A DNA stretch of 64,000 nt from Stropharia rugosoannulata (taxonomy: Eukaryota > Basidiomycota > Agaricomycetes > Agaricales > Strophariaceae), in assembly GCA_028532985.1 (NCBI GenBank), contig JANCIK010000006.1:1612001-1676000 (forward strand). Direction: 5' to 3'. Made by a program: the position numbers and the translations under genes. The first letter of the stretch is position 1. The number at the start of each line of letters is the position of its first letter. Below are positions 31,410-57,835 of this stretch, in pieces. The notes beneath the pieces were generated by a model. That model was given only the letters and a program-made list of their open reading frames with translations. It was not told the DNA's origin and ran no database searches.

Positions 31410-32166
31410 TGACAGGGCTGCTTTTTGGCTACAGGTGTAAACAGTCAGAAGTTCCATTTATGGGATAGCTGCGCGCGGGAAAACACAGAGGGACTAGAGT
31501 GGAGCCTGACTCGTAGTCTATAGCTATCAGCGCGCGAGCATCATGCCTATAAGCGCCTGCGCGCACCGTATCACGAGAGGGATTGGTCAGCGAACTGTAC
31601 AGTCGAAAGTGCATAGTTTGGCCATCTCTGCGAGCGATCAGGTGTGCGTAGAACGGTTAAGCACTAGCAAAGTGCGGTGCGAGTACAGCTGAGCGAGTAC
31701 CAAGGGCGGTGTGAAGGGCTGTGCGCGCATTTCATGTGCGCGCATCGCAAAGGCAGAATTTGCCTAAGTCCACACATCATGTGACCGTGGCGGCGCGCAT
31801 CAAAAGACGCGCAAAAGCCCGAGGGAACGAAAGACGTGCGCGCAGCGAATGCCAAGGGGGCTGGAACACTAGAGGGAGGCCCGGATGCGATGCGCGGACC
31901 TTTGGTCGTGCGTTGCTAGTATTTACTTTACCTTATCATTAGTACACATGCGTGCATCGCATATAAACCTGTATCCTTGTCTATAGTAATTAAGCAATTG
32001 TCTACCCACTAGATCTGTGTGCTGGGTTCTGTCCCAGGCCGTCAGCGGGCTGTGTTTAGCTTTTGTTAGGGTTTTAACTGTGAAGTATTTGTGAATCATA
32101 GGAGTTTTGGATAGCTTCTGGCCACCGGGTCATTTGGAGAGCTCAGTGAGGAGTCAGTACAACCGT
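31410..32166 (+). repeat. 5' LTR, truncated copy (type A)
   Basis: Begins TGACAGGGCTGCTTTTTGGC and matches the first 756 bp of the 3' LTR with one difference (T for C near 31,731). It stops at ...GTACAACCG, where the second LTR starts. A TATA box (TATAAA, 31,962-31,967) could drive + strand transcription. Confidence 0.9.
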
Positions 32167-33380
32167 TGACAGGGCTGCTTTTTGGCTACGGGTGTAAACA
32201 GCCAGGAGTTCCGTTAATGGGATAGCTGCGCGCAGGAAACACAGAGGGACTAGAGTGGCGCCTGACTCGTAGTCTGCAGCTATCAGCGCGCCTTATGACG
32301 ATAAGCGCCTGCGCGCACCGTATTGCGAGAGAGATCGGTCAGCGAGCTGCACAGCCTAAAGTGCATAGTCTGGTCATCCGTGCGAGCGATCGGAGAGGCG
32401 TAGAACGGTTAAGCACCAGCAAAGTGCGGTGTGAGTACAGCTGAGCGAGTACCAAGGGCGGTGTGAAGGGCTGTGCGCGCATCTCATGTGCGCGCATCGC
32501 AAAAGGCAGAATTTGCCTAAGTCCACACATCATGTGACCGTGGCGGCGCGCATCAAAAGAGACGCGCAAAAGCCCGAGGGAACAAACGACATGCGCGCAG
32601 CGAATGCCAAGGGATCAGGACACTCGAAGGGAAGCCCGGATGCGAAGCGCGGACCTTTGGCCGCGCGTTGCTAGTATTTACTTCACCTTATTATTAGTAC
32701 ACATGCGCGCATCGCATATAAACCTGTATCCTTGTCTATAGTAATTTAAGCAATTGTCTACCCACTAGATCTGTGTGCTGGGTTCTGTCCCAGGCCGTCG
32801 GCGGGCTGTGTTTAGCTTTTGTTAGGGTTTTAACTGTGAAGTAATTGTGAATCATAGGAGTTTTGGATAGCTTCTGGCCACCGGGTCATTTGGAGAGCTC
32901 AGTGAGGAGTCAGTACAACCGTGTACGGAAACTCGCACTGTAGTGTTTAGACTGTGAGACTGCACCGCCGGGTGAAAGACTTTGGAGAGTCTTGGATTGT
33001 TGGACTTTGGAGAGTCCGCGCATCGCACGAGGTCACCGGACCCGGAAGTGCGCGCAGCGAAGCCGTTCGCTAAAAACAACTTATTTCATTTATCATTTTG
33101 CCTAGCGCACGCCACTAGCAACCGGGCTCTATTCGAGATTTACTAGAATTAAACCCCTCCTTACAAACGAATTTGCAGGCACTACTTGCTATTACAAAGA
33201 CTAGAGGACACGAGGTGCGCGCATCGCACTCCCAGAACGGGAACCAGAGCAGAGCATAGATTATACTAGCCGTTTAGTTGAGGGCGTTCGCTCGATCTAA
33301 GGGATAGGATCTCGCTCCGCTGGGTGTGCGTGTGTGTTGTGTTTCGCGATTTCGAGTCTAGCTACGCAGTAGACCTCTCA
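32167..33380 (+). repeat. 5' LTR, complete copy (type B)
   Basis: A full 1,214-bp LTR starting TGACAGGGCTGC and ending ACCTCTCA, directly followed by the primer-binding site. Compared with the truncated and 3' copies it has many substitutions in its first part (for example CGGGTGTAAACAGCCAGGAG), so it has a different history from the outer LTRs. TATA box at 32,717-32,722. Confidence 0.9.
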
Positions 33381-33382
33381 TC

Positions 33383-33400
33383 TGGAGCCCACCGCGAGGG
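33383..33400 (+). promoter_or_regulatory. primer-binding site
   Basis: TGGAGCCCACCGCGAGGG, two bases after the LTR end. TGG is the complement of a tRNA CCA tail, so a tRNA with 3' end GGTGGGCTCCA would prime minus-strand synthesis. I cannot name the tRNA. Confidence 0.7.
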
Positions 33401-33564
33401 GAAGGTTCAGAAATCTCACTTAGTGTTTCGGGAACTACGGCTTGCGCCTATTACAATAAATTACAAAAATTTCAAATAAAACGGGGACGAGTAACAAGCG
33501 AGGCAAATTTCCTGCGCCTTCATCGCTCGCCGAGCCAGAAGAAGCCAGACCATCCTTTGGAACG

Positions 33565-35515
33565 GTGCCTTCACGCGAGAGAACCACGAGGAGCAAGAAA
33601 GACGCTGAGCTGGTAGAGCCGTTGGTAATTACACCGACGCGAGACAGAAAAGCAAAGAAAAGAGCGAGGGAGGAAGCGCAGTTGCATATCGAGACTCAGG
33701 GATTAGCGCAGCGCATCCCAGGTGCGCTCACCGAAAGCGACTCGGAGTTAAGAGTAGGGACTAGTGGATTTTGGGGACCACCATCGGGCATCGAAACAGA
33801 AGACCAATTAGTGGACGGTGATATTACACTCGAAACCGCACCATTCGGTACTTCTGATAGCCAAGCTACCCAAGACACCCCTCCTCCATTCTCGGAAGTA
33901 TTTGGAACTGCTAAGACATCCGCGCAGCGCACGGCGGAAAATAGCGAAAGCGAGGCAGAGCGCGTAGCGAGAGATATATTTGGAGGAGACTTGTCAGATC
34001 TCTCAGAAAGCGAACGAAATTCACCCCCACGAGAACCAGAAACTATGCCTAAGGACATGTCCATGCCAGTACGCGGTGCGCGGCGCGCCGAGCTTCGATC
34101 CTGCTGCAGAGCGCGATGAGCTGCCGCGGTACTTCGAGGATCTGGAGGATTGGTTTAAGCGCGCGGAGGTGACGGAGGACGATGAGAAAAGAGGATATGT
34201 AATCAAATATGTACCCATGCAGACGGCGGAGGAGTGGAAGAATTTACCAGGTTATGATACCAAGGGGTACGCGGAGCTCAAGAAAATGATTCTCAACGAG
34301 TACCCGGAGGTGATCAGCATTCAGACAGGGTCCATTGCGCGGCTCAAGAAGCTCTGCAAGGAGAATCAGCGCATCTCGGAGGAAGACCTCCAGGTGTTGC
34401 TGGACTTCAAGCGCGCGTTCTTGGCCGAGGACGCTAAGCTCACGAAGTCGCCTACACTGCTCGCTAATCATACCTTGGTGACTTACTACACAAATAGTCA
34501 CCAATCTGGGTTCAGGGATCTATTATTTAATAAACTGGACATTGATTACACGACGCGCGCATCGCTCGACAAGTTCTTAACTGAGCGCAATATACAGTTC
34601 ACCGCACCTACTGGGGTGACGGTAGAAGCGCGCACTGAGGACATGTACCCTCTCAAACAAGTAGCCGAGATGGCGGAACAAATGGCCCGTACTAGGAACC
34701 CGAGCACGACGCTGAGCCTAGGGCGCGAGAGCACTGATGGACTTATGCCGGTGCCCGCCATCAAGACTGAGGCCGCGGATGTTGGTTCGCTGCGCGGAGA
34801 GATTGAGGACCTGAAAGGGTTCGTCGCCTCCTTCAAGGATACCTTGTCGTTAGTGGAGAAGACAGTGGCGAAGTCAAAGGAGTCGAGTAAGAAAGAGTTG
34901 GAGGACATTATCCGCAATGTCATGGCTGCGCGCGCCGCACCGATGTCGGTGCCTGTGCAACCAGTAGCCCCCATGATGCCCATGAGCGCACCGAGTTTTG
35001 GTGGACCGCCACCTAGGCCCTTCCAATACCAACAACGCCCGGAGCCTCGCTGCTTCTACTGCAAGCAGACGGGACATGTGGTTGCTGAGTGCATCGTACG
35101 GCAGCAAGACTTGTCAGCTGGAAGGATTGTCATCACAGAGGCGGGGCGCTTACAGTTACCTGATGGGTCGTCGATACCTTGGGACCCTTCGCGCGCGATC
35201 AAAGAGCGCGTCGACGAATGGCATAAGAAGAACGGGCCGCCCGCGCAGCAAGCGTATATGGCACCCGTCCATCCCTCGTACATGGGTATGCCTCCGAGCA
35301 TGGTATATTCGCAGATGTACCAGCCAGCCAGTTCCTTGGACGAGACCTACGAAGAACAGATACGCGCACTTCAGCAAGAGCTGGAGAGTAAGAAGGCGTT
35401 CCTGAAGGAGCGCGCATCGGCGAAGACGCCTGAGGAGGTGATAGAGGAACAGCGTCAGCTAATAGCGACTATGAAAGCCGAACGCGACGCTGCGCTCAGT
35501 CAGGGTTTCGATTGA
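33565..35515 (+). pseudogene. gag: gag polyprotein of the Ty3/Gypsy element, frameshifted
   Basis: Two overlapping frames. The first (33,565-34,119) has an acidic leader with DIFGGDLSDLSESERNS and MPKDMSMPVRGA. Near 34,070-34,090 coding moves to the second frame, which carries SFDPAAERDELPRYFEDLED and the capsid-like helical domain, and ends at 35,515. The switch lies in CGCGGTGCGCGGCGCGCC, which looks like a short tandem slip. Near 35,050 there is a CCHC zinc knuckle (CFYCKQTGHVVAEC) that would bind the RNA genome; a coiled coil closes the protein. The first frame has no ATG before 34,045, so the start is unresolved or lost. Gag would build the intracellular particle. Confidence 0.8.
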
Positions 35516-35520
35516 GTCTG

Positions 35521-36789
35521 ATGAAGGGAAACGCGGGCAGAGTTATGCGTAGCGGCTCTGATAAACCCAAGAACCCGGAGGGCGCAAACAAGAAGTTACC
35601 AATCAAGAATATACCCAGAGCATCAGTTGAGGACGCGAGTGACGATGAGGAAGATGAGTTGCGAGAGGTAGGGGAGGAGCAAGGTGCGCGCAGCGCACCA
35701 GTGAAGAAGAAAGTAGTGTTCGAGGTTCCTGCAAAAGCTGGGCCTAGTGCACGACCAGCAGCAGTGCCATATGTAATGGTACCTCTGCTGCGCGTTCCGG
35801 AGAAAGTGAAACCTAAGGTTAGGGAAGAACCCATACCTGTAGTAGAGAAGAGGAAACCTGCTTATAAGCTGCGCGCACCTATAGAAGATGAAGCGCAGGC
35901 TGACGCAGTCCTCAAACATTTAGAAAATCAGAAGATTGAGATCACGCAGGGCCAGTTGTTAGGCATATCGACTGCAGGTTTCAGAAGAAAGTTCGTTGAG
36001 CGCATAGTACCAAGAAAGGTACCATTGGATTTGAATACGATGCGCGTATTACAACTAGACTACGATGAAGAAGAGCGTGAAGTAGATGAAGCTATCGCGC
36101 GGTTAGCAGAGGAAGAAGAGGAAGAGGAGTTTATGCAGATGGATGAGCTACCAGTGGCCACTTTCCTTACGTGCTCAGATGAGCGCAGCGGACTGCAACC
36201 GGGGACCATCATCATGGAAGACCCGTACGAGCAGTACGTCTCGACTCTGCAGCCGGGCGAAAAGCCTAAGGGACTTATAGTGGCGCGCGAATCGCACCAT
36301 CTAAAGGCGGTATTTCCGCTCATCAACGGCAAGGGACACGCGGAGACGTTGCTCGACAGTGGGTCGCAGATTGTGTCAATGGCACAGGACACCGCTGAGC
36401 GTTTAGGACTTAGTTGGGACCCGGACTTCACTATACGGATGCAGAGCGCGAATAAGCAGGTGGAATCCACCAAGGGCTTAGCGCGCAACGTACCGTTTGT
36501 GTTTAACGGACTGACAGTGTATTTACAAGTGCATGTCATCAGCGCAGCGGCTTACGAGGTGCTCTTGGGCCGGCCGTTCGAGATCCTCACGGAGAGCAAT
36601 GTGAAGACGCGCGGCGATGGAACGGTTGAGCTTACGCTCACCGATCCCAACACACAGCGCAAACTGGTAGTACCCACCTATAACCGAGGGTGCGGTCCCA
36701 AGATAGTGCAGCGCGAACCTAAGTTACAGGACCCTGGCACAACGGAAAACCCTAATGCAGATCAGGATTTTCAATCCTCGATGAATTGA
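35521..36789 (+). CDS. retropepsin-type aspartic protease ORF
   Basis: A separate frame starting six bases after the gag stop. The first half is charged, with an acidic run (near 36,060-36,130). The protease domain has the active-site strand AETLLDSGSQIVSMA (D-S-G, near 36,350) and the flap-side and closing motifs, ending in AAYEVLLGRPF (near 36,550-36,590). It would cleave Gag and Pol. Its stop overlaps the pol start (TGATG), suggesting termination-reinitiation coupling rather than a frameshift between protease and pol. Confidence 0.85.
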   Translation: MKGNAGRVMRSGSDKPKNPEGANKKLPIKNIPRASVEDASDDEEDELREVGEEQGARSAPVKKKVVFEVPAKAGPSARPAAVPYVMVPLLRVPEKVKPKVREEPIPVVEKRKPAYKLRAPIEDEAQADAVLKHLENQKIEITQGQLLGISTAGFRRKFVERIVPRKVPLDLNTMRVLQLDYDEEEREVDEAIARLAEEEEEEEFMQMDELPVATFLTCSDERSGLQPGTIIMEDPYEQYVSTLQPGEKPKGLIVARESHHLKAVFPLINGKGHAETLLDSGSQIVSMAQDTAERLGLSWDPDFTIRMQSANKQVESTKGLARNVPFVFNGLTVYLQVHVISAAAYEVLLGRPFEILTESNVKTRGDGTVELTLTDPNTQRKLVVPTYNRGCGPKIVQREPKLQDPGTTENPNADQDFQSSMN

Positions 36790-39700
36790 TGCGTCAAGGA
36801 GAGGTCGCGTTGATGTTTGATAGAGATGATCGCACGGGGAAAATAGAGATAGCGGGGTACGCGCTACCAAAGAATAAGAAGCGGTTTGGGAGCGCTGAGC
36901 TCAGGGATGTATACATGGCTCAAGCAGTACATGAAGCTAAGATGGAGGATGATGAAAAGGAAAGAATATACAAATATTTTCAGCAGCGCGAATGGTGCAA
37001 AGAGGAAGTAGTCAAAGGAGAGCCTAGAGGGCAGTTCCGCGCATCGCACGAGGAACAGGTCCCTAGTAAGAGACAAGGAGTAACGCGTAAGCGCTTGACT
37101 GGTAAGAATGCCACAACCGTTACGGTGCTCGCAGGAAAGAAGTATAAGCCGGTGGCTGAGAAAGTCAGACCCGTTTATCAAGATTTACCAGAAAAGTTTA
37201 GAATAGTAAGGGAGATTAAAGGGGACCCACTAAAGGACATGCCACAATTGTCACCACATCCGCCAGAATTTGTACCTACAGGTCGGTACACCGCTGAGCG
37301 CATGGAAGGGATTGACAAGGCACATGAAGGGGATTTCCTGTGGTCCGAGGAGCGCAAGTTGGTGCATCAAGTTTTCATGCAGCAGAACGAGGCGTTCGCG
37401 TGGGATGACACGGAGAAGGGTAGATTCCGTACGGACTTCTTCCCTCCAGTAGATATCCCCACTGTAGAACACACGCCTTGGGTATTGAAGAACATTCCGA
37501 TACCACCTGGGATGTATGAGCGCGTATGTGAATTCATCGCCACCAAGATTCGCGCAGGCACGTATGAGCCCTCGAGCTCGTCGTACCGGTCGCGCTGGTT
37601 TACAGTGACTAAGAAAGACGGGGTCTCGTTCAGAATTGTGCACAGTCTCGAACCGTTAAATGCAGTAACTATTGCACATTCAGGACTACCTCCAGCAGCA
37701 GAGAGTCTAGCGGAACACTTTGCGGGGCGCGCATGTGGCGGCATCCTGGACTTGTATGTTGGGTACGATGAGCGGCTGCTAGCCGAGTCCTCTAGAGACC
37801 TGACTACATTCCAGACGCCGTTCGGTGCGCTGCGCTTAGTAACCCTACCTATGGGATGGACGAACTCCGTGCCCATCTTTCATGAGGATGTCGCATATAT
37901 ATTACGCGATGAAATACCGGAAGTTACAGAACCCTACATAGATGATGTACCTATTAGGGGACCTAAAACGCGCTATGAGTTAGAAGGAGGAGGATACGAG
38001 ACGATACCAGAGAATAAGGGAATAAGGAGATTTGTGTGGGAGCATATGTTGAATGTCAACAGGATCGTGCAGCGCATGAAGTACTCAGGAGGAACATTTA
38101 GTGGAAAGAAGTCCATACTGTGCGCGGCTGAGATAGTAGTGGTGGGGCACTTGTGCACATATGAAGGACGAAAGCCCGCACCTGATAAAGTGCATGCAAT
38201 CCTCAATTGGGGGCCATGCAAGAACATCAGTGATGTGCGCGCATTTATGGGTACAATGGGTCTGCTACGGATTTACATCTCGGATTACGCGAAGCGCGCA
38301 GAGCACATACAACGGCTATTGCGTGGGAAAGAGCCCTTTGAGTGGGGGCCCGCTCAGCAAGCTAGCATGGACTCGCTGAAAGATGGTGCGTGCAACGCAC
38401 ATTGTGTGAAACCACTGGACTACACATTACCAGGGCCGATTACTTTGGCTGTAGACACATCATGGCGAGCAGTAGGATTCTATATTTACCAACAGGACCC
38501 ACAAGATTCGAAGAAGAGGGTATATGCGCGCTTCGGATCAATACTGTTAACGGAACGCGAGCAGCGCTTCTCACAGCCGAAGCGGGAGTTGTATGGACTC
38601 TTACGTGCGCTACAAGCCTGTTATTACTGGCTCATCGGTGCGCGCAAGCTGGTGGTGGAAACAGATGCCAAATACTTGAAGGGCATGTTGGATAATCCGG
38701 GCATGGGCCCTAATGCAACTATTAACCGCTGGATAGATAAAATACTTATGTATCACTTCCAGTTGAAACATGTTGCGGGCAAAACCTTTGGTGCGGATGG
38801 TTTATCGCGTAGGGAAGGGCAACCTGGAGATGAGGCGTACGCGCACTCCGAAGAAGATGATGATCAGGAGGTGGGACCGCTCGAATATGAGAAAGTCTAT
38901 GAAGATGACCCAGATCCCCTGGACTTGGAGGAATTCAAGGAACAGATCGATGATCGCGGAGGGTATCTATATACAGGACTCCTCAACGAGTTGTTTGAAG
39001 GTCCCACTGCGCGCAAGTTACCAGAAGCGCGCTCTATAGGCTGTTTCCAGCAGGAGCTCGAGCGCGCACGGAAAGAGACGGAAGCGGAAAAGCGGGCCGT
39101 GCGGGACTTCATACAGAAAGAAAGTGTGCCGCTCGCGCAGCGCGAGTACTTAGAGAAATTCATACTAGCGCACGCGGTACCCGACTCCAGAATAGAGGAT
39201 CTGGAGGACGAGGAGTACAATGAGCGCAACAGGACGTCTGCAGGCAAAGATATGGATGAGAAATTGCCAATGATACGCTACTGGTTGCAGAATCCCACCA
39301 CTAGGCCAAAAGGCATGACGGAGCGAGAATATCAGAACTTTACGAGGAATGCTCGTAACTTCTTCTTAGACAAGGATGGGCGGATGTACAGGAGATCCAT
39401 AGATGACGCGCATAAGTTGGTGATAGATCAGGCGCAGCGGACACGCATGCTGCGCTCAGCGCATGACAGCTTGGGGCACAGAGGAGCGTACGCTACGCGC
39501 AAACTGCTAGCTGAGCGCTTCTGGTGGCCTGAGTTGGAAAGGGATGTCTACTGGTATGTGAAAACATGTCATGTCTGTCAGTTAAGGCAGAAGACAATCA
39601 TCCAGATCCCGCGCACCGAGACACACACGCCGTCTATCTTCCAGCAACTACATGCGGACACTATGCACATGTCCCCGGCCTCCAATGGGTATAATTACAT

Positions 39701-40292
39701 AGTGCACAGAAGATGTGCGCTGAGCTCATGGGCGGAAGGACGGCCATTAAAGAAAGAGAATGCCCGCGCAATAGCACAGTGGATATTCGAGGACATTATC
39801 TGCCGCTGGGGCTGTCTGCAAGAAATCATCACAGACAATGGTGGACCGTTCCGCGCAGCGCTCAAGTATTTAGAAAAGAAGTATGGGATTACAGGGATTA
39901 CCATCTCAGCGTACAATTCGCAAGCGAATGGCAAAATAGAATGTCCCCATTGGGACATAAGACAGATGTTGTGGAAAGCGTGTGGAGGGACAGAAGGCGC
40001 GCATAAGCGTTGGAGTAGATTCTTCTACCATGTGTTGTGGGCGGATCGTATCACTGTGCGACGAGGATTCGGGTGTTCCCCATTCTTCATGGTAACGGGC
40101 GCGCACCCCATACTACCATTCGACATAGCAGAAGCGACTTGGCTGGTGAAACTACCAGATCGCGTACTGACTACGGAGGAGTTAGTAGGGTATCGCGCGT
40201 GCGCACTAGCCAAACATCGCGACACAGTAGAGGAGATGCGCACACGAGTATCAAAGACGAAAAGAGAAAAGAGATGCGATCAGGGCATTTGA
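36789..40292 (+). CDS. pol: pol: reverse transcriptase, RNase H and integrase
   Basis: About 1,167 codons. RT: WFTVTKKDGVSFRIVHSLEP, GGILDLYVGYDE, FQTPFGALRLVTLPMGWTNS, and the active-site box YIDD (near 37,940). RNase H: ITLAVDTSWRAVGFYIYQQD, REQRFSQPKRELYGL, LVVETDAKYLKGM and ADGLSRR. Integrase: HHCC zinc site (RSAHDSLGHRGAY ... CHVCQLRQ), then the DDE core with LHADTMHMSP, ITDNGGPFRAAL and NSQANGKIECPHW. RT-RNH-IN order marks Ty3/Gypsy. The frame ends abruptly at 40,292 with KTKREKRCDQGI, although homologous-looking sequence continues in another frame from about 40,270, so a small indel has cut off the integrase C-terminus in this copy. Confidence 0.92.
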   Translation: MRQGEVALMFDRDDRTGKIEIAGYALPKNKKRFGSAELRDVYMAQAVHEAKMEDDEKERIYKYFQQREWCKEEVVKGEPRGQFRASHEEQVPSKRQGVTRKRLTGKNATTVTVLAGKKYKPVAEKVRPVYQDLPEKFRIVREIKGDPLKDMPQLSPHPPEFVPTGRYTAERMEGIDKAHEGDFLWSEERKLVHQVFMQQNEAFAWDDTEKGRFRTDFFPPVDIPTVEHTPWVLKNIPIPPGMYERVCEFIATKIRAGTYEPSSSSYRSRWFTVTKKDGVSFRIVHSLEPLNAVTIAHSGLPPAAESLAEHFAGRACGGILDLYVGYDERLLAESSRDLTTFQTPFGALRLVTLPMGWTNSVPIFHEDVAYILRDEIPEVTEPYIDDVPIRGPKTRYELEGGGYETIPENKGIRRFVWEHMLNVNRIVQRMKYSGGTFSGKKSILCAAEIVVVGHLCTYEGRKPAPDKVHAILNWGPCKNISDVRAFMGTMGLLRIYISDYAKRAEHIQRLLRGKEPFEWGPAQQASMDSLKDGACNAHCVKPLDYTLPGPITLAVDTSWRAVGFYIYQQDPQDSKKRVYARFGSILLTEREQRFSQPKRELYGLLRALQACYYWLIGARKLVVETDAKYLKGMLDNPGMGPNATINRWIDKILMYHFQLKHVAGKTFGADGLSRREGQPGDEAYAHSEEDDDQEVGPLEYEKVYEDDPDPLDLEEFKEQIDDRGGYLYTGLLNELFEGPTARKLPEARSIGCFQQELERARKETEAEKRAVRDFIQKESVPLAQREYLEKFILAHAVPDSRIEDLEDEEYNERNRTSAGKDMDEKLPMIRYWLQNPTTRPKGMTEREYQNFTRNARNFFLDKDGRMYRRSIDDAHKLVIDQAQRTRMLRSAHDSLGHRGAYATRKLLAERFWWPELERDVYWYVKTCHVCQLRQKTIIQIPRTETHTPSIFQQLHADTMHMSPASNGYNYIVHRRCALSSWAEGRPLKKENARAIAQWIFEDIICRWGCLQEIITDNGGPFRAALKYLEKKYGITGITISAYNSQANGKIECPHWDIRQMLWKACGGTEGAHKRWSRFFYHVLWADRITVRRGFGCSPFFMVTGAHPILPFDIAEATWLVKLPDRVLTTEELVGYRACALAKHRDTVEEMRTRVSKTKREKRCDQGI

Positions 40293-40302
40293 AAAGAAGC
40301 AC

Positions 40303-40731
40303 TTGGCTAAAATCCGTGACTATGTGTTTAAGCCAGGAGATGTGGTGCTAATGAGGAACTCGGGCATAGAATCCAGTCTGAACCGTAAGATGCTCGCACG
40401 ATGGAACGGGCCTTACATCGTTATCGCACGAAAAGACGGTGGAGCATACTTAGTGGCAGAGATGGATGGTTCTGTGTTGAAGGATAAGGTGGCGGCGTTC
40501 CGCCTCATTCCTTACTTTGCACGAAGGCAGCTGCGCTTACCGGACGGCTTGGATGATATAATTGATCAGACCAAGGAGAACCTCGCTAAAATGTTAGAGG
40601 CGCCGGATTACGAGCCAGCTATTCCCAAAGATTATATCTTTGATGAGCCTGGTGTACCCTCGGGTAGCGGTGCGCTTACAGCGGAAGAAGATGAAGAAGA
40701 CGATGATGACTGGGGCAAAGAAGACACTTAG
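40303..40731 (+). pseudogene. integrase C-terminal GPY/F-like domain, out of frame with pol
   Basis: Frame starting AKIRDYVFKPGDVVLMRNSG with LARWNGPYIVIARKDGGAYL, the GPY/F signature of Gypsy integrase C-termini, then an acidic tail (EEDEEDDDDWG). Coding character in this frame begins upstream, near 40,270 (AIRAFEKKHLAK), overlapping the end of the pol frame. It is therefore the detached end of pol. Confidence 0.82.
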
Positions 40732-40858
40732 ATGTGCGAGCACCGTAGGAAGAAAAGTGACCACAATATAATATATTGGGTAGAGAAGATGGGGAATACA
40801 AAGAGAACTCGCTACAGACGCCCCTTTAAGGCGCGCAGCGCACATGGAGCCAGGCTAT

Positions 40859-42175
40859 CTACTGGGTAGGTTTGTCCTCAGAGGCAGTAACACCAGTGAC
40901 GTCGAGGCTGCGCTGCAAGATGACAAGCTGTTCGACAAGGAGCGCGCGGCGCTTGAGAATGAAGTCGACCTTGTGGAGATCACAAATGATCTCAGCCTGT
41001 AAATCGCCAATGAGGCGGCGCGTCACTAACTCGGAAGGGTTGCCGGTGTCGAGGGGTTCCTTGAGGAGGTTAGCGGCGGCGTCAAGGCAAGCATTGACCT
41101 TGTCGTTGTCCAAAACGAGAGAAGTGCCTGAAGGAGAAGAGTTAGGAGAAATCAGTAAGAAAATGGTGCGGTGCACGTACCTTGCATAATAAAAGGAGAG
41201 TCGGGGAACGTAGGAACGCCCTCTGAGCCCAGCCTGGCTTTCTTAGGAGAGGCCTCACCTGCGGCGGCGTCACGGAATGAGCGACGGAGCTCGGTCTGAC
41301 GATAAGTCATGCCTCGACCAAGGGGACGAGAGCGGTAACCAGGCGTGTCTCCGCGCTTGCGCTGGTATTTCTATAAGAATCTAAGTGCGCGCAGCGGAGA
41401 CGGGTCAAACACACACCTGTTTAGGAGTATCAGGGGGCGCGGCGCGCTTCTTGTTAGGACTCGGCTCGGGTGTATGCTGCCTGCTGGGAGGACCTCCCTC
41501 AGTCGCGGCTTCAACTTTATCGTCAAGGGCCATCTTTTTGAGGAGCATGTAAAGTTGCATGTTAGTGATGTCTGGTAAAGAAACCAAGGTTAGCCACACC
41601 TTGTCATCGTCAGAGTCAGGAGATGTAGTACCTCCAGGCGCGGAGGCGGTCTCAAGGTCCGCAGTCGCGGAACGTGTAAGAACGCGAACGTTGCGCTGCG
41701 CGCACCAGAAAAGGGATTAAGTATAGAAAGGGTTAGGAGAGGAAGAGGAGCGCACAGGTCCAGTAGGGGTATGGGTGCGCTGACGAGAAGCGGCAGCCTT
41801 GGCCTTGAGGACTTGTTCATGCAAATTGATAAATGCGTTGGCGGCAGGGGAGAAGGAGCGAATATGGTGGTCAGCTTCGAGCGACGTATATATGGCACGA
41901 GTCTCATTAAGGATCTCGATAGCTTCATTGTTGTTTATAACGCGAGTGATACCGCCGTGCGCGTCGCGCCAGCGGTTCTGCAATCGTGCCAGACGAAGTC
42001 AGTAACATACAACAAAGGAACCGCGCGATGCGCGCACCAGATCGGTAGCAAGCAGCTCCAAGCTGCCAGTATAATTCGCAGGAGTGGCAGAGGCCAACCC
42101 ACGAATGTCCTGGATCAGTGAGAGCTGATGCTTGACATTGGTGAAGTTAAAAAGAGGAGCATGAGTGGTAGCCAT
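40859..42175 (-). CDS. antisense cargo gene 1 of the retrotransposon (about 365 aa)
   Basis: Five exons join in frame: 42175-42038, 41977-41756, 41695-41417, 41370-41181, 41127-40859. The four introns are 60, 60, 46 and 53 nt with GT..AG ends, and two have clear branch sites (TACTGAC, CTAAC). Protein: starts MATTHAPLFNFTNVKHQLSL; helical exon 2 (NNNEAIEILNETRAIYTSLE); Ser/Pro linker; DITNMQLYMLLKKMALDD; a basic segment (YQRKRGDTPGYRSRPLGRG, and PKKARLG); and a helical end (LVTRRLIGDLQAEIICDLHK). No recognised domain; the basic parts suggest nuclear localisation. Three of the splice sites fall inside the GTGCGC/GCGCGCAG words that fill the element. A TATA box lies about 65 nt upstream. Confidence 0.75.
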
Positions 42176-42235
42176 GGTAGTGGTTGAGAACAGTGGAAAT
42201 AAAGTGCGATGCACTCATACAGAAAACGGCGAGCG

Positions 42236-42244
42236 CTTATATAG
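42236..42244 (-). promoter_or_regulatory. TATA box of antisense gene 1
   Basis: CTATATAAG on the minus strand, 61-69 nt upstream of the ATG at 42,175. Confidence 0.6.
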
Positions 42245-42704
42245 TCTTCACCTGGGTCGATCAGCGCTGCGCGCAGCTGGTGACCGACCGAGCAGCAGGC
42301 CCAAGGAGTTAAGGAAGGAAGGACTCAACAAAAGGGCCAGATGGGTCATAGCACAGGGCTACACCTGTCCGACGTTACATTCACGGAGATTGAGTGGGAT
42401 GGAAGGGACCTGAATACAAGATCTCATATAGCAACAAGAAGTGAGAGGATCGTGCGTGCATCGCAGCAAAAGGGTGCGCGCATCAAGGGAGATGCAGGTC
42501 TTGCCCCGTTTGGCAAAATGATGTCTGTTTTGGGATTGATGCCGAAAATGCATAACAATGTTACCCGACAATCTTATTTCAAATACAGGGTCATGACACA
42601 TGTACCAAGGAATAGAGGCTAGCTATGATTATAGATAGTTATCAATGGAAAGACAGCATAATGTCAGTTCGGGAATTAAACATCCTAAGAAGTGATTGTC
42701 AGGG
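42245..42704. other. spacer between antisense genes 1 and 2
   Basis: No supported gene. Contains GCGCGCA words like the rest of the element. Confidence 0.45.
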
Positions 42705-43244
42705 TCAGCGCAGCGCACGAGGAGAAAGACCCACAGGAAAGAATTCCTCCTGGTAAAAGACCTGGGCGGCATAGTGGAGTTGTTGGAAGTGTTCAGAGTG
42801 AGGGAGGGTGCCGTAGCGCTCAGCATCAGTAGTACCACATAAGCGCAGGACGAGCTCGCTGTAGTGAAGCTGCGCGCACAAGTGCGAGATGCGAGGCGAG
42901 TGACAGGTAGCTTCGGTCAGCGTCAGAGCCCGCTACAAAGATGTCAGAGCCGTGCACGAAAAGGCTGAAGAATGGGGACATGCGCGCACCGCATGGTCTT
43001 GAACGTGACGCATCATGGCTAGGCAGATGGTCATGGGAAGCAGCGGTTCAGTCGCAGCCTCAAGAATAAAATGAAGGGCGCCTATGTAGATGCGGCAAAC
43101 GCGATCATGATCATTGAGTGGAATATCAGCTAGTGCCCGCTTGGGCAGAGCAGCTAAACGCAGGAAGGAAGGATCAGACCTCGCGCGCTGAAGGAGATTA
43201 CTTTCGGTATTAAGGGAGGGCATGATGATAAGAGACAGGGTCAT
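42705..43244 (-). CDS. antisense cargo gene 2 of the retrotransposon (about 153-160 aa)
   Basis: Two exons, 43244-42990 and 42932-42705. The proposed 57-nt intron has donor GTGCGC and a CTGAC branch site before TTTGTAG; without it there is one in-frame TAG. The start is either the first Met (43,244) or, more likely from its distance to the TATA box, MPSLNTESNLLQRARSDP at 43,223. The protein has RVCRIYIGALHFILEAATEP and, in exon 2, HLCAQLHYSELVLRLCGTTD and LPHSEHFQQLHYAAQVFYQE, a helical, Leu/His/Cys-rich protein with no recognised family. It lies head-to-tail with genes 1 and 3. Confidence 0.6.
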
Positions 43245-43253
43245 TGCTGGACC

Positions 43254-43262
43254 ATATATATT
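43254..43262 (-). promoter_or_regulatory. TATA box of antisense gene 2
   Basis: AATATATAT on the minus strand, about 30-38 nt upstream of the Met at 43,223. Confidence 0.45.
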
Positions 43263-43293
43263 TCAAAACCGTCCATCAGATGAGCGCACGGGC

Positions 43294-43774
43294 TCAATCG
43301 TAGCTAATATCATCTACTACAAGGGCGGCGTCAGGATCTACGTCTAGAACGGTGGTGCCTGTTGGTTCAGAAGGTGGGAGGTTGTGAAAAGGCATGCCAA
43401 GATGGCTGTACCGATCGAGAAGGTGAAGGGCGGCGTTACTGAGCATGCGCGCATCGAAATGATCATCGCTAAATCTGCGCTGAGCACGGCCTTCGTAAAA
43501 CATGATCGTCAGGACTAAAGCCAGGAATTGACGGTTGAAGTCGATAAAACGCAAAGGCAGGGTAATGCGATCCTAGAGGAAAACGTCAGCAGAGGAAGCG
43601 CTTGCATGAACATAAGGACTTTACCAGTGCGCGCACGAGGGACTGAGCAGACTGTAGAGGAAAGTGAAAAGGGCCGTTGTTGCAGTCCTCTGCGAGCTCC
43701 GCATGAACGGCGAGTTGTCTCAGTAAAACAGTAAATTGGCGAGCCACAGCGGTGCGCTGATATCGGAGAGCCAT
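43294..43774 (-). CDS. antisense cargo gene 3 of the retrotransposon (about 142 aa)
   Basis: Two exons, 43774-43625 and 43572-43294, separated by a 52-nt intron (GTAAAG..CTCTAG) that keeps phase. Starts MALRYQRTAVARQFTVLLRQ; exon 2 has LPLRFIDFNRQFLALVLTIM and ends in an acidic VVDDISYD. Helical, no recognised domain. The ATG lies about 40 nt below a TATA box, and that TATA box directly abuts the internal polypurine tract on the other strand. Only 50 nt separate its stop from the first Met of gene 2, so the two could conceivably be parts of one unit, but I found no intron joining them in frame. Confidence 0.62.
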
Positions 43775-43812
43775 AGCAGAAGGCAGAGAATCTGTCAACT
43801 GGGGACAGTTGA

Positions 43813-43819
43813 ATTTATA
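43813..43819 (-). promoter_or_regulatory. TATA box of antisense gene 3
   Basis: CTATAAATTC on the minus strand, ending about 39 nt upstream of the ATG at 43,774. Confidence 0.55.
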
Positions 43820-43832
43820 GTGGGGGGGAGAG
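43820..43832 (+). promoter_or_regulatory. internal polypurine tract
   Basis: GTGGGGGGGAGAG on the + strand, preceded by GGACAGTTGAATTTATA. This resembles the true PPT before the 3' LTR, GTGGGGGGGAGA preceded by GGACAGTCAAGATTTTA. It could serve as a second plus-strand primer site, or mark an old element end. Confidence 0.6.
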
Positions 43833-44261
43833 ATGGCCTAGCCAAGCAGACATAAATCTTGCAGCTTAAGGAGATACGGCAGAAAGATCAGAAGTGCAGG
43901 GCAGAAATGGCAGTTGGCTAGCATATATGCATAGGCATATCTTTCATATGCGCGCATCGCAATTATACTCGCCCACTGTAGAAAGACAGGAGCAGAAGTG
44001 AGTGGGCACATACAAGCAAGTGGACATTGGTCATATGTGTGCATGGCACTTGTAGCCGCTCAAAAGAAATCAGGCTATTAGACATCTTAAAAAGATAAAG
44101 CACTTAAAAATCACACAGGAGAAAGACAAGAGAATAATTAGAAGCATATAATAGTAAACAAAAACTATTCTACATATGCTAGATAGAATAGTAAGGGAGA
44201 GGACAAGAAGGGAATATAGTAAAGAGAAGATAAGCGCCAAGATGTGCGCCCCGCAGCAAGA
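43833..44261. other. spacer between antisense genes 4 and 3
   Basis: No supported gene. AT-richer than the rest of the element. It would hold the 3' UTR of antisense gene 4. Confidence 0.45.
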
Positions 44262-46346
44262 CTAAGCCTCCATATTATCACCATCTTCTTCCTCAGCAGA
44301 GGCCTCGGGATTCGAATCTTCGGCAACCACAGAGGAGGACTTGTACGAACGGGCAGGAGCTTTACCTTTCCCTTTCCCTTTTCCTTTTCCCTTGGACGAC
44401 TTGGCCTTTGAAGAACCAGCAGTAGGGACTTTGGAAGCTTTGGATGGTTGAGGGGCAGGAGTGAAGGTGGAAGGGTCCTGACGAGGATATGCGGGATTGT
44501 AAAAGGAGGACGGCGGCGCGGACTCGATAGGGTGATCAGAATCCAATGGCAGACAGAGCGCATCGTAGGAGACGCAGAGCTGCTTGAGATCCATAGACCG
44601 AAGGGCATCGAAGGTCTCACAGTCAGTAAAGCGAGAACCAATAATGACATTGGTAGGCAAAGTCACAGCCATAGCCTGCGCGAGCTGCACAAGCTGGATA
44701 AGTTCCGCAAAATAGAGGCGCTGGAGGCCTCGACGAGCCTCCTCCGCGGCGCGCGCTTGCTGACTGAAAGCGTCAAGGCGGGCGAAAGAGGCCTGTAATT
44801 CTGAAAAGAAAGAAAGGAATAAGTAATAGAAGAAAAAGAAAAGAAAAAGAGATGCGCGCACCACGAGGAGAAGTGCGGTACCAACCGGAGGTACCTTCTA
44901 GTGCGCTGTCGAGCTCAGCGCCGGTCATGGTATGCAGGCAGGGGCCCTGACCCCCTAGGCGGCAACTTGCGCACTTCCTGCCAGGACCGCGAAGGATACA
45001 GAGATGCTTGAGGGAAGGAGAGTCGGAAGACTCGTCCTGGGGGCGTCCGCAAAGGGAGCACGTAAAGCCGGGCTAAGGAAGGAAATAATAAGTAAAAAGC
45101 TAAAGAGGAGAAAACGAAGAGACAAACTATAATCGCCTCGCGCAGCGCTTCTTCAGGAGGGAGTTGGGCCATGCTTATGGCGTCGGGTAGAGGCTCGCCA
45201 GCCAACGCCAGGGACGCATGGTAGACTCCAGGAAGAAGATTGTAAATAGGGTACGTCGAGCGATATTGAGACTTAGAAGAATCGACGCCCTTCAGGCGTG
45301 GAAGCTCTTCGAGGCCGCTGGGAATGGCCTCTAAGGGGACGACCTTTGTATGCGATGCGCGCGCCTTGGGAACGTGAGGAGAGGCGCGCACGGTAGAAGG
45401 CCCCGCTACAGCCTCTTGAATCACTAAATAAAAATTAAATTAAAGGGGCGTCAGATAGATAAAGGAGGAAATAAAATACCAGTACCAGCGGTTTTGCGCG
45501 TACGTTTGGTAAGGGGGACTGGAGGGACCGGCAAAGTCGAAATTGGGACAAGCGCGGCGCGCTTGCGTTTGGAAGGGGCAACAGGCGCGGAATCAACAAC
45601 CAGAGGAGAAATAGGGTCTGGAGAAGGAGGAGGCGGGGTTGGAGAAGGCGCGGCGCGTTTGCATTTGGCAGGTATGGCGGGAGGGGGCTCGATGGGCATA
45701 GGGTCTGGAGAAGGCGGAGGCGGAGTTGGTGAAGGAGAGGCGCACCGCTCTTCGGAGGGAGGGACGGGCGGTGCTTCGATAATCCTTCCACTCTCGGTGG
45801 ACTCTCCCATCTCCACATCGGTACTGGTCGGCGCCAGCGGCACATACTCTAGGCGAGGCTCAGGCTCGCTTCCAGGGGACCAGGAGGATGGGAACGCGGT
45901 GAGAAACGCGCGCTTATAAGATGACAGCTAAGAGAGCATGAGCGCAGCGCAGCAAACAAAAAGGAATAATTACTTACGGGCTCAAGATCGGACTCCGTAT
46001 ACCATACGGGGCGCTGAGTGGGGTCTGAGATAGACCAGCCGTACACGGGGTCGTCATCCTCGAACGCGAGCAACGAGAGTAGGAGGATGAGCTCGCGCGT
46101 ACCCGCATGGTGAGAGGCATCGGTAGGGAAGGCGAGAAGGTGCTGTTCAAGAGCGAACCCGAACTGTTCGCGCACTGAGTGGAATCGAGCAGTGTCATCC
46201 GGAGACAGCTCGGTGCGCGCGCTCAGGTCCTCCAGCGTATCATAGTGGGCGAGGGCAGGGCGAAGGAGACGGAAGTGATCGGCTTGTTCGCACTCGCGAG
46301 CGGCGGTCTTCTGCTTGCGGAGGGAGCTGCGCTGGTTGAAGGCCAT
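44262..46346 (-). CDS. antisense cargo gene 4 of the retrotransposon (about 609 aa, Cys-cluster protein)
   Basis: Five exons join in frame: 46346-45978, 45927-45480, 45423-45128, 45072-44895, 44800-44262. Introns are 50, 56, 55 and 94 nt, with donors GTAAGT, GTATTT, GTTTGT and GTACCT. Protein: helical N-terminus (MAFNQRSSLRKQKTAARECE), a long Pro-rich linker with two near-identical PSPTPPPPSPDP blocks and KRKRAA/KRTRK nuclear-type signals, then a Cys cluster FTCSLCGRP ... LCILRGPGRKCASCRLGGQG followed by PCLH, then a helix (LQASFARLDAFSQQARAAEE) and a Lys/Gly tail (SKGKGKGKGKGKAPA) ending acidic. The Cys set could bind zinc. I do not recognise the family; a nucleic-acid-binding role is an inference. 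Confidence 0.75.
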
Positions 46347-46443
46347 GAAGTCACGATGAGATGCCAGGGTGAGATAGGAGAAGAAAGCAGCAGGAAGGGC
46401 AGGGTGAGAAGAGGAGAGATGGGCTGAAAAGAATTCAGGGAGG

Positions 46444-46451
46444 TTTATATA
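46444..46451 (-). promoter_or_regulatory. TATA box of antisense gene 4
   Basis: TATATAAA on the minus strand, about 100 nt upstream of the ATG at 46,346. Confidence 0.6.
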
Positions 46452-46878
46452 AGTTTGGAGAAATGGCGGAGGAAAATTCTGGAGTATGAGAGAAGCGGAC
46501 GGCGATGAGCGCATGTCGAGTAAACTTATCGGCAATATGCTAGAACAGCGTAGCGCCAAAAGGAGGTCCAGCAAGGTTCAGAAAAGGAAAAGAAAAGACC
46601 TGACTAGGCAAATGACCCAAGAAGGAAGTCGGCGGGAAGTACGGTGCGCGTATGAGTGCGGTGGCGGTTGCCTAAAATAAGCTAGTCAAGAGAAGTCGGG
46701 CGGGGATACCTGAAAAGGAAGCAAAAAGGATGGATAGAGATAGTGACTCGGGCGGAGGCGCCGTAGTAACCGCGTAAGGCAGTAGCTGAGCCGTAGTGCA
46801 GGAAAACAGGGTAATGGTGAACTGCTATCAAAGAAGAGATGCGCGCATCTAGAATTGACTGAGGACAGTCAAGATTTT
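46452..46878. other. spacer before the 3' polypurine tract
   Basis: No supported gene on either strand. It holds the upstream region of antisense gene 4. Around 46,790-46,880 the sequence weakly resembles the start region of antisense gene 3, as if both follow the same ancestral element end. Confidence 0.4.
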
Positions 46879-46891
46879 AGTGGGGGGGAGA
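46879..46891 (+). promoter_or_regulatory. polypurine tract of the 3' LTR
   Basis: AGTGGGGGGGAGA immediately before the LTR. The purine run primes plus-strand DNA synthesis in LTR elements. Confidence 0.85.
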
Positions 46892-48104
46892 TGACAGGGC
46901 TGCTTTTTGGCTACAGGTGTAAACAGTCAGAAGTTCCATTTATGGGATAGCTGCGCGCGGGAAAACACAGAGGGACTAGAGTGGAGCCTGACTCGTAGTC
47001 TATAGCTATCAGCGCGCGAGCATCATGCCTATAAGCGCCTGCGCGCACCGTATCACGAGAGGGATTGGTCAGCGAACTGTACAGTCGAAAGTGCATAGTT
47101 TGGCCATCTCTGCGAGCGATCAGGTGTGCGTAGAACGGTTAAGCACTAGCAAAGTGCGGTGCGAGTACAGCTGAGCGAGTACCAAGGGCGGTGTGAAGGG
47201 CTGTGCGCGCATCTCATGTGCGCGCATCGCAAAGGCAGAATTTGCCTAAGTCCACACATCATGTGACCGTGGCGGCGCGCATCAAAAGACGCGCAAAAGC
47301 CCGAGGGAACGAAAGACGTGCGCGCAGCGAATGCCAAGGGGGCTGGAACACTAGAGGGAGGCCCGGATGCGATGCGCGGACCTTTGGTCGTGCGTTGCTA
47401 GTATTTACTTTACCTTATCATTAGTACACATGCGTGCATCGCATATAAACCTGTATCCTTGTCTATAGTAATTAAGCAATTGTCTACCCACTAGATCTGT
47501 GTGCTGGGTTCTGTCCCAGGCCGTCAGCGGGCTGTGTTTAGCTTTTGTTAGGGTTTTAACTGTGAAGTATTTGTGAATCATAGGAGTTTTGGATAGCTTC
47601 TGGCCACCGGGTCATTTGGAGAGCTCAGTGAGGAGTCAGTACAACCGTGTACGGAAACTCGCACTGTAGTGTGTAGACTGTGAGACTGCACCACCGGGTG
47701 AAAGACTTTGGAGAGTCTTGGATTGTTGGACTTTGGAGAGTCCGCGCATCGCACGAGGTCACCGGACCCGGAAGTGCGCGCAGCGAAGCCGTTCGCTAAA
47801 AACAACTTATTTCATTTATCATTTTGCCTAGCGCACGCCACTAGCAACCGGGCTCTATCCGAGATTTACTAGAATTAAACCCCTCCTTACAAACGAACTT
47901 GCAGGCACTACTTGCTATTACAAAGACTAGAGGACACGAGGTGCGCGCATCGCACGCCCAGAACAGGAACCAGAGCAGAGCATAGATTATACTAGCCGTT
48001 TAGTTGAGGGCGTTCGCTCGATCTAAGGGATAGGATCTCGCTCCGCTGGGTGTGTGTGTGTTGTGTTTCGCAATTTCGAGTCTAGCCACGCAGTAGACCT
48101 CTCA
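46892..48104 (+). repeat. 3' LTR (type A)
   Basis: 1,213 bp, TGACAGGG...ACCTCTCA, followed by CCGC. Almost identical to the truncated left LTR over its length. Beyond that point it differs from the complete 5' LTR at several positions (for example ATCCGAG for ATTCGAG, a shorter GTGTGTG run near 48,050). TATA box at 47,444-47,449. Confidence 0.93.
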
Positions 48105-48108
48105 CCGC
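48105..48108. repeat. target-site duplication CCGC, right
   Basis: Matches 31,406-31,409. Confidence 0.7.
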
Positions 48109-57540: not shown

Positions 57541-57835
57541 GGTATACGGGAGAGAGAGTGTGTGTTATGTTATGACTGTGTGTACGCACGGGCTTGCAAT
57601 ACAGACAAGCTAAATACTTATAGTCAGTCAGTCAGCAAGCAGTTTTGTGACTAATTAACCCATACTACAGTTGAGAACTTTTGCATGAGGCCTTCGACGT
57701 GCATGCCAAAGCTCTATCTACACAGACAAGCCTTATTATGCATGACTTCAAAATGCATGTTGACTTCACACGAGTCTTCATGCATCATAGCTAGCACATT
57801 TATTAGACGCCAATGTCAAATACACAACATTTGTT
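57541..57835. other. intergenic, 3' flank of KDZ copy 2
   Basis: No gene seen. It contains further ATGCATGACTT and AAATGCATGTTGACTT words. Confidence 0.45.

Follow-up and report, generated by a model that had tools for sequence, protein, structure and literature searches.

Four spliced antisense genes and subfamily-specific dispersed words in a Ty3/Gypsy retrotransposon of Stropharia rugosoannulata

A Ty3/Gypsy LTR retrotransposon of ~16 kb in the genome of Stropharia rugosoannulata carries four spliced genes, A–D, between pol and its 3' LTR, all antisense to gag-pol, and comparison of genomic copies makes it nearly certain that these are real gene models under selection. Each subfamily of the element also carries its own short word, coding regions included: TGCGCGCA in the subfamily of the copy described here, TCCGCTGAG in a sister subfamily, and TCGGAAAC/T in a third Gypsy family, so that gene module and private word are found together in two subfamilies and one further family. 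By analogy, the antisense module may be a self-recognition or anti-silencing system acting like the VANDAL–VANC system of plants, a reading that we hold tentatively and at slightly less than an even chance. Positions refer to the window, the whole 64,000 nt stretch analysed (JANCIK010000006.1, 1,612,001–1,676,000, forward strand), and are collected in Table 1.

The carrier has the LTRs, polypurine tract and gag of a Ty3/Gypsy element, followed by aspartic protease, RNase H and integrase H2C2 in that order (Pfam); the reverse transcriptase of the window copy gave no Pfam match, though RNase H and integrase were detected. The 5' LTR is composite, with identities to the 3' LTR of 99.87% over its first 756 nt, 94.5% over 32166–33380 and 97.8% over the tail at 32919–33380. 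The pol frame of the window copy is broken near 40.23–40.29 kb; an open pol frame of 1316–1346 aa is listed in 33 of 38 other copies, and seven of these 33 contain an internal stop.

Table 1. Features of the retrotransposon and its antisense module, in window positions
Feature	Position	Strand	Remarks
4-bp flanking repeat CCGC	31406-31409 and 48105-48108		read by eye
5' LTR, composite	31410..33380	+	31410-32166 near-identical to 3' LTR, then complete diverged LTR copy 32167-33380
Dispersed motif TGCGCGCA	31410..48104	.	35 sites with extra 5' LTR piece; 31 in 32166-48108
gag ORF with CCHC zinc-knuckle-like stretch	33968..35515	+	zf-CCHC match weak (E 0.0022), below cut-off
pol	35434..40731	+	protease 35434-36789; RNase H and integrase 36756-40292
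Gene A	40859..42175	-	5 exons, 365 aa, dN/dS 0.11
Gene A exons	42175-42038, 41977-41756, 41695-41417, 41370-41181, 41127-40859	-	
Gene A TATA box TATATAAG	42236..42243	-	TATATAAG or TATATAAA in 13/13 copies; 68 nt upstream of ATG
Gene B	42705..43244	-	2 exons, 160 aa or 153 aa, dN/dS 0.20
Gene B exons	43223 or 43244 to 42990, 42932-42705	-	
Gene B TATA-like box	43254-43261	-	TATA-like in 16/16 copies covered; 38 nt upstream of second ATG
Gene C	43294..43774	-	2 exons (43774-43625, 43572-43294), 142 aa, dN/dS 0.21
Gene C TATA box	43812-43819	-	TATAAATT in 20/20 copies; 45 nt upstream of ATG
Internal polypurine tract copy TAGTGGGGGGGAGA	43818..43831	+	edge of exchanged D cassette
Putative D cassette, exchanged between lineages	43840..46800	.	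boundaries approximate
Gene D	44262..46346	-	5 exons, ~607 aa, dN/dS 0.16
Gene D exons	46346-45978, 45927-45486, 45423-45128, 45072-44895, 44800-44262	-	
Gene D Cys-rich exon 4	44895-45072	-	
Gene D TATA box	46444-46451	-	TATA-like in 7/7 copies covered; 105 nt upstream of ATG
Terminal polypurine tract	46878..46891	+	unchanged in 14/15 copies shown
3' LTR	46892..48104	+	from LTR comparison

An earlier note on this DNA had proposed four spliced antisense genes at this place, each with a TATA-like box upstream. All four genes were found, and their boxes are kept in every copy covered. The same note had counted eleven introns; their GT..AG ends on the antisense strand and lengths of 46–94 nt stand, and their number is ten. 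Introns in this orientation persist through retrotransposition, since in the genomic RNA, which has the sense orientation, they read CT..AC. Gene B offers two starts, the first ATG and the ATG at 43223, and the latter is probably the one used, since the first ATG and the TATA box are separated by only 17 nt and similarity to the sister protein begins at residue 8. Protein D has 607 aa, or 609 aa with a donor 6 nt downstream. Basic NLS-like stretches were seen by eye in protein A, and none of the four proteins matched a Pfam family at E up to 1.

Comparisons among copies provide several lines of evidence for these models. First, splice dinucleotides are kept in all aligned copies, the window included, for A (13/13), B (15/15) and C (17/17); of the four introns of D, two have GT..AG ends in 9/9 copies and two keep their GT donor in 7/9. 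Second, at the projected sites the genes are in frame and free of internal stops in 12/13 copies for A, 9/15 for B and 14/17 for C, the broken genes belonging to single copies (1/13, 6/15 and 3/17). Among nine copies of D, those of the window and L009 are fully intact, L025 is stop-free with its start not matched, four (L013, L014, L016 and L028) are stop-free, with lengths not divisible by three when the splice sites of the window are applied, and L011 and L015 contain stops. Third, dN/dS is 0.1–0.2 for all four genes, indicating purifying selection, and exceeds 1 in none of the 188 pairs scored; conservation of this kind was the check that the earlier note had suggested. The outcome that it had named against itself, copies that lack the region or have frames broken at random, did not occur: exon 5 of gene A lies antisense within 2.5 kb downstream of pol in 39/39 pol copies scored.

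A regulatory or protective role, as first suggested for the module, is plausible and is sharpened by the dispersed motifs. Under the VANC-like reading, the antisense strand would bear an accessory regulatory module belonging to the element itself, and the products of A–D would act in the nucleus on the element's own DNA. The Cys-rich, metal-binding-like domain of D, followed by a probably helical region, would read the short word of its subfamily, which would have accumulated along the whole element, TGCGCGCA in the window's subfamily and TCCGCTGAG in its sister. D may then coat the element's own copies and counteract host silencing, with A, B and C acting alongside it. Between subfamilies, a change of word would be accompanied by a change in the Cys-rich exon of D, and the D segment, which lies between the internal and terminal polypurine tracts, may be swapped between co-packaged genomes during plus-strand synthesis; such cassette exchange would account for the variation in the remainder of D.

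The window element holds 31 TGCGCGCA sites in 15.9 kb, against none in 47 kb of flanks and against means of 2.0, 3.8 and 6.2 (maxima 7, 9 and 15) in Markov simulations of order 2, 3 and 4, with 200 simulations each. Genome-wide, TGCGCGCA occurs 2784 times versus 633 for the reversed word, and TCCGCTGAG 1471 times versus 280; the third-family word shows no such enrichment (1988 versus 2216). Codon-preserving shuffles (500 each) gave a mean of 2.5 and a maximum of 8 for window pol, which has 12 sites of GCGCGCA or its reverse complement, and a mean of 2.3 and a maximum of 8 for sister pol, which has 17. The two ORFs of the third family contain their own word 7 and 6 times (means 1.35 and 0.64), counts reached in 0/500 shuffles. 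The exact word is absent from, or not above codon shuffles in, the gag, A, B and D exons, and the exonic site at 42871 is present in 0/15 other copies. Within introns and intergenic DNA, 94.6% of cells at motif positions match the window, against 87.6% elsewhere; within the LTR, where the motif is also dense, its positions are conserved no better than their surroundings (94.5 versus 94.4%). Substitutions at motif sites are CpG transitions in 108 of 138 cases, with the highest rates in CpG-poor copies. The sites in sister pol fall on both strands and in several frames, which points to double-stranded DNA as the likely target.

These distributions bear on a different explanation, in which A–D serve the replication cycle through nuclear import, RNA export or particle assembly, like retroviral accessory proteins, and the motif is an unrelated host-factor site, insulator or chromatin boundary. 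DNA binding is not required of the well-conserved proteins A–C; GENE23, an antisense protein of the plant element Grande, is described as nuclear in the portion of PMC7264820 available; and a dispersed word of its own, ACCGGCGG, also occurs in a KDZ DNA transposon that shows no sign of these genes. However, different words within one host nucleus are more than a single host factor could explain, the motif in pol exceeds codon shuffles, and L034 and L035, neither of them a complete element, yielded no such word in their 2-kb Gypsy part. We consider this explanation unlikely, but it has the best prospects of the alternatives.

Protein D consists of a helical N-terminal domain, a Pro/Ser-rich basic middle, Cys-rich exon 4, a helical-looking exon 5 and a GKGKGK tail, described by eye except for the helices predicted by AlphaFold. 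Among 11 protein segments, exon 4 shows the largest difference between subfamilies relative to that within them (a within/between contrast of 0.47), and it co-varies with the motif between the subfamilies, a correlation drawn from two subfamilies and hence from one change. The fungal Zn2Cys6 binuclear cluster has the spacing CX2CX6CX5-12CX2CX6-8C. An antisense protein of the third family carries CX2CX7CX11CX2CX6C in 6/6 loci (L039 being the same place as L036), with no Pfam match, and D has a different Cys spacing. Neither Cys-rich domain matched a zinc-cluster family, their likeness to Zn2Cys6 being one of pattern only, and AlphaFold models with fold searches yielded no DNA-binding fold.

Synonymous divergence of D is 3–5-fold above that of the other genes, with dS up to 1.7 versus means of 0.19–0.26 for A–C, and D lineages within one backbone differ by dS 0.22–1.7 at w 0.10–0.28. 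The internal polypurine tract that borders the presumed cassette is unchanged in 19/20 copies (L023 differs), with local identity of 0.98–1.00. Many old D lineages in one backbone under purifying selection are what type-specific regulators would show, and a self-control circuit is a further alternative: A–D would repress or tune how their own family is transcribed and integrates, with the motif, dense in the LTR as well, serving kin recognition and the D lineages acting as incompatibility types. However, exon 4 is alike across D lineages (within the window's subfamily, 88% on average), and the motif is shared by copies whose D lineages differ, so the D types seem not to read different words; a motif spanning the whole element also exceeds the needs of promoter control. 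A circuit of this kind is rather improbable.

The earlier note had viewed the genes as cargo, a term that finds no support here if it means captured passengers. Spliced and equipped with their own promoters, they do resemble ordinary host genes, and capture for the benefit of the host might be supposed. Yet when gene A, gene C and exon 5 of A were searched for in the same genome, the matches listed and the places inspected included no recognisable copy outside an element. The 96 matches to A exon 5 comprise 56 of window type, 32 of sister type and 8 partial, and the module is common to the 88 near-complete copies. It is likewise common to subfamilies with saturated dS (14 of 16 A–D rows undefined): the sister subfamily, with pol 90–91% identical to the window's, keeps all four genes in the same order. 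The third Gypsy family has antisense gene candidates of its own in an analogous module. Host cargo is thus very unlikely, and A–D look like part of the element's core gene set. That only the antisense RNA matters, through dsRNA regulation, with the ORFs incidental or due to chance, can hardly be right, even though other elements have antisense transcripts with possible regulatory roles (as described in part of PMC7264820), as it is strongly contradicted by the dN/dS values and by gene A, in which codon position 3 varies like the introns (0.107 versus 0.099) and positions 1 and 2 are held at 0.026 and 0.016.

Extending the VANC-like reading, LTR retrotransposons of this genome may run a sequence-specific self-recognition in which spliced antisense genes supply a DNA reader that binds metal, along with its partners, the family word is written along the element's length partly via synonymous pol changes, reader domain and word switch together at the subfamily split, the reader is swapped as a cassette bounded by a second plus-strand primer, and the design has arisen or diverged repeatedly. 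This wider scheme is possible, but we would sooner doubt than assert it. An internal polypurine tract at the cassette edge would explain how one gene is reshuffled while the rest is kept. In the portions of the open-licence literature available, including PMC5408684, no account was recognised of a fungal LTR element with several antisense genes that are spliced, nor of a link between antisense genes and dispersed motifs. Most known examples of additional antisense genes come from Gypsy elements of plants. The four spliced genes described here are maintained under strong selection in dozens of copies within a single genome, where their dN/dS, promoters and introns can be measured, and a tie to family-specific words would provide a direct experimental handle on what antisense genes do.

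The closest structural parallels, as far as the available passages of each source go, are the plant Ty3/Gypsy elements Grande, RIRE2 and Retand, which have additional antisense ORFs between pol and the 3' LTR in most copies (PMC7264820, PMC11963269); gene23 of Grande has its own promoter (PMC7264820). Location, orientation and presence in most copies are shared. In contrast to the four spliced genes here, no introns are described there (the word is absent from the accessible text of PMC11963269), and family-specific dispersed motifs set the present element apart. TRP28 (PF04195), the domain that marks the antisense proteins of the Retand lineage, was not among the Pfam results for A–D, which argues against membership in the Retand lineage. 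Boty of Botrytis cinerea is likewise a fungal LTR element with an additional antisense ORF (PMC7264820); the description given there mentions no set of four genes, no introns and no motif. Sireviruses, which are plant Copia elements, carry repeated motifs with a CGG-CCG core in their LTRs and upstream of env (PMC2829016), and resemble this element in being LTR retrotransposons with element-specific, CpG-containing words in high copy. The passages seen mention no antisense genes, and the motif here is not of that confined type, as it spans the whole element, including pol, introns and some antisense exons. Fungal DNA transposons bear TET/JBP dioxygenases thought to counter DNA methylation (PMC12730594, in part), and so are also mobile fungal elements with putative anti-methylation genes; their enzyme is identifiable, whereas A–D have no Pfam domain.

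In Arabidopsis VANDAL elements, related families differ in short motifs, and the element-encoded VANC and its motif evolve together (PMC5735166, in the part available). Related families with different enriched short motifs are likewise found here. VANDALs are DNA transposons (PMC12730594, same part), and an LTR retrotransposon does not belong to the MuDR/VANDAL family; their motifs are tandemly repeated in non-coding regions, whereas those here are dispersed and also occupy pol codons. The anti-silencing function of VANC, with binding of the motif by a protein of the element and loss of DNA methylation, is experimentally shown and that of A–D is inferred, with sequence relation to VANC compared by Pfam alone. 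If the VANC-like reading is true, anti-silencing by sequence-specific self-recognition would have been reached independently by fungal retrotransposons and plant DNA transposons.

The strand opposite to gag-pol carries four gene models between pol and the 3' LTR of the window's Ty3/Gypsy element, A (365 aa), B (153–160 aa), C (142 aa) and D (~607 aa), and all close in frame, as the earlier note had proposed. Their introns are all GT..AG and 46–94 nt long, also as described there, but number 10 rather than the eleven then counted. Comparisons among copies support maintenance of these genes; the set comprises 20 further copies of 8.1 kb, the best 20 of 40 matches to D exon 5 (72–100% identity, window included). 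First, splice dinucleotides at sites projected from the window are unchanged throughout the aligned copies, which number 13 for A, 15 for B and 17 for C with the window counted in, and frames at the projected sites are intact in 12/13, 9/15 and 14/17, respectively. Two D introns have deviating donors in two of nine copies; at the window's sites two of nine are fully intact, two contain stops, and the remainder are stop-free yet incomplete or out of register. Second, mean dN divided by mean dS among intact copies is 0.106 for A (66 pairs), 0.203 for B (36) and 0.211 for C (91), with dN/dS above 1 in none of 188 scored pairs. Purifying selection, proposed earlier as a check, is seen for all four genes when the window is compared exon-wise with all copies (A 0.09, B 0.21, C 0.15, D 0.16; pol tail 0.25). 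Third codon positions of A vary like introns and positions 1–2 do not; in C, intron variation (0.058) is below third-position variation (0.096). Third, the upstream TATA boxes of A–D already noted are retained in all copies covered. Fourth, A exon 5 lies antisense within 2.5 kb downstream of pol in all 39 pol copies scored (from 454 first-look candidates), contrary to the prospect that other copies lack the region; as a query it returns 96 matches, 56 of window type, 32 of sister type and 8 partial. Judged from sequence, the conservation of splice sites, frames and TATA boxes, the low dN/dS and the presence of A exon 5 beside every scored pol copy make A–D selected parts of the element. Antisense introns survive retrotransposition because splicing of the sense genomic RNA cannot see them, the same logic as in retrotransposition-detecting marker genes carrying an antisense intron.

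The element has the 4-bp repeat CCGC on both sides (read by eye) and encodes protease, RNase H and integrase domains, in that order, on the + strand. Its pol frame is broken near 40.23–40.29 kb; 33 of 38 other scored copies have an open pol frame of 1316–1346 aa, with a stop inside in seven of the 33. The genome searched comprises 48.0 Mb in 20 contigs; its small introns, its KDZ transposons and the kinds of element present are suggestive of a basidiomycete. Within the 5' LTR sits ~753 nt of additional sequence from a diverged LTR lineage, resembling the outcome of template switching or recombination.

Coordinates of the element, its parts and other repeats (window positions unless a locus is named)
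Feature	Position	Remark
Ty3/Gypsy element	31410-48104	~16 kb
Composite 5' LTR	31410-33380	31410-32166 99.87% identical to 3' LTR, then complete diverged LTR copy (94.5%)
Internal polypurine tract (PPT)	43818-43831	TAGTGGGGGGGAGA
Terminal PPT	46878-46891	exact match of internal copy
3' LTR	46892-48104	
AT-rich tandem array	50632-51040	~80-84-nt units, GTGATATATCAC-like words; comparable words also near 23.3 kb
Repeat cluster, possibly a MITE-like element	56992-57552	repeats of ~80-100 nt, some direct and some inverted, with ATGCATAACTGTC words
Apparent extra intron, sister gene A	L029:4927-4971	~45 nt, TACTAAC branch site (by eye)
KDZ DNA transposon	L034:2240-7501	Pfam KDZ E 6e-44

All four genes recur in the same order in a sister subfamily (loci L029, L030, L032 and the decayed L031), whose pol shares 90–91% protein identity, and 78% DNA identity over 4698 positions, with that of the window. 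By matched piece, sister-to-window identity is 44–78% for A, 53–79% for B, 52–74% for C and 32–58% for D; 14 of the 16 between-subfamily comparisons of A–D show saturation at synonymous sites, and the module is therefore old. At the position of the apparent extra intron in sister gene A, the window gene reads through in frame and may have lost an intron through exonisation. Another Gypsy family (L036/L037), young given LTRs 99.9% identical over 968 nt, carries three antisense intron-bearing gene candidates with a TATA-like box at each (by eye); searches with A–D find no similarity there at E 0.01.

Side-by-side comparison of copies reveals that the window element is dotted with the word TGCGCGCA and the sister with TCCGCTGAG. 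There are 31 TGCGCGCA sites in 15.9 kb of the window element versus none in 47 kb of flank; Markov expectations of order 2, 3 and 4 are 2.0, 3.8 and 6.2, with maxima of 7, 9 and 15 (200 runs each). Coding sequence (pol, exons of B and C) as well as LTRs, introns and intergenic DNA contain sites, within unrelated surrounding sequence; gag contains the core GCGCGC nine times and the full TGCGCGCA not once. Genome-wide, TGCGCGCA has 2784 sites versus 633 for the reversed word, and TCCGCTGAG 1471 versus 280. TCCGCTG or its complement occurs 25–29 times per 6.4–6.5 kb of sister module, 12 times in a 1.1-kb segment of locus L017 with a nested sister-type LTR, and, in 4.8 kb of pol, 23 times in the sister versus twice in the window element. 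Against 500 shuffles of synonymous codons preserving protein and codon usage, the sister word is found 17 times in sister pol (mean 2.3, maximum 8) and seven times in the preceding ORF (mean 1.05, maximum 4). GCGCGCA or its reverse complement appears 12 times in window pol (mean 2.5, maximum 8), five and four times in the two ORFs ahead of it (means 1.25 and 1.1; reached by 5 and 9 of 500 shuffles) and four times in gene C (mean 0.32), with no clear excess in A, B and D. Occurrence on both strands and in several frames points to recognition at the level of double-stranded DNA. In the two ORFs of the third family (L036/L037), TCGGAAA or its reverse complement occurs seven and six times (means 1.35 and 0.64; reached by none of 500 shuffles), and its 8-base form has no genome-wide enrichment. 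The Gypsy parts of L034 and L035, neither a full element, have no comparable word; the former occupies the first 2 kb of its locus, with no space for an antisense module ahead of its LTR (by eye). The KDZ transposon beside it has its own dispersed word, ACCGGCGG/ACCGCCGG (ACCGGCGG 15 copies versus 0.33 expected), and a 480-aa acidic ORF with no Pfam match. Words private to one family may be widespread among this genome's transposons.

In introns and intergenic DNA, copies match the window at 1018 of 1076 motif cells (94.6%) versus 27414 of 31278 elsewhere (87.6%), cells that are not independent of one another; CpG agreement is 90.4% inside motifs versus 84.3% elsewhere. LTR motif positions are no better kept than the remainder of the LTR, and one exonic site is found in the window copy only. 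CpG transitions account for 108 of 138 substitutions within motifs, and the substitution rate peaks in four CpG-poor loci (L010, L012, L023 and L026, taken as whole 8.1-kb loci including flanks). These four and L031 have CpG observed/expected ratios of 0.43–0.73 with raised TpG/CpA, a pattern which, with the motif transitions, is consistent with methylated, decaying silenced copies.

Gene D behaves as a cassette. Its synonymous divergence within the window's subfamily averages 0.89 (0.22–1.7), versus 0.19 for A, 0.20 for B, 0.26 for C and 0.11 for the pol tail. Except in L009, identity drops between the 300-nt blocks at 43550 (88–98%) and 43850 (77–86%), rising again at the LTR. The internal PPT copy, which overlaps gene C's TATA region and is unchanged in 19 of 20 copies, coincides with the edge of the exchanged segment: identity is 98–100% across 18–19 copies at 43800–43839 and down to 62% by 43900. 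In the sister, the conserved block starts at L029:2696 (at 2758 against L031), and a PPT-like tract lies at 2758. By analogy with retroviral replication, two plus-strand starts would allow co-packaged genomes to exchange the 3' segment.

Among 11 protein segments, the Cys-rich D exon 4 exhibits the largest contrast within versus between subfamilies, with mean identities of 0.88 (window's subfamily), 0.77 (sister) and 0.41 (between). The next contrasts are the D exon 3 end (0.35), D exon 5 (0.32) and B exon 1 (0.30); D exon 1 is also variable within subfamilies (0.60 and 0.53; between 0.36). A third-family antisense protein contains CX2CX7CX11CX2CX6C followed by an acidic stretch, reminiscent by Cys pattern of fungal Zn2Cys6 proteins, and a Pfam search with it gives no match. 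Of the three Gypsy words, two include CGG, the usual Zn2Cys6 half-site. This single subfamily split is suggestive of D, through exon 4, as a candidate reader of the word, and it is plausible that such a system shields the element from silencing.

Several known systems share parts of this arrangement. The antisense ORFs of plant elements, as presented in PMC7264820 and PMC11963269, have place and orientation in common with A–D, and the Sirevirus motifs presented in PMC2829016 are likewise private, CpG-containing words. The closest working parallel, with no claim of membership, is VANC, where, in the account of PMC5735166, related elements carry different words and the protein diverges alongside.
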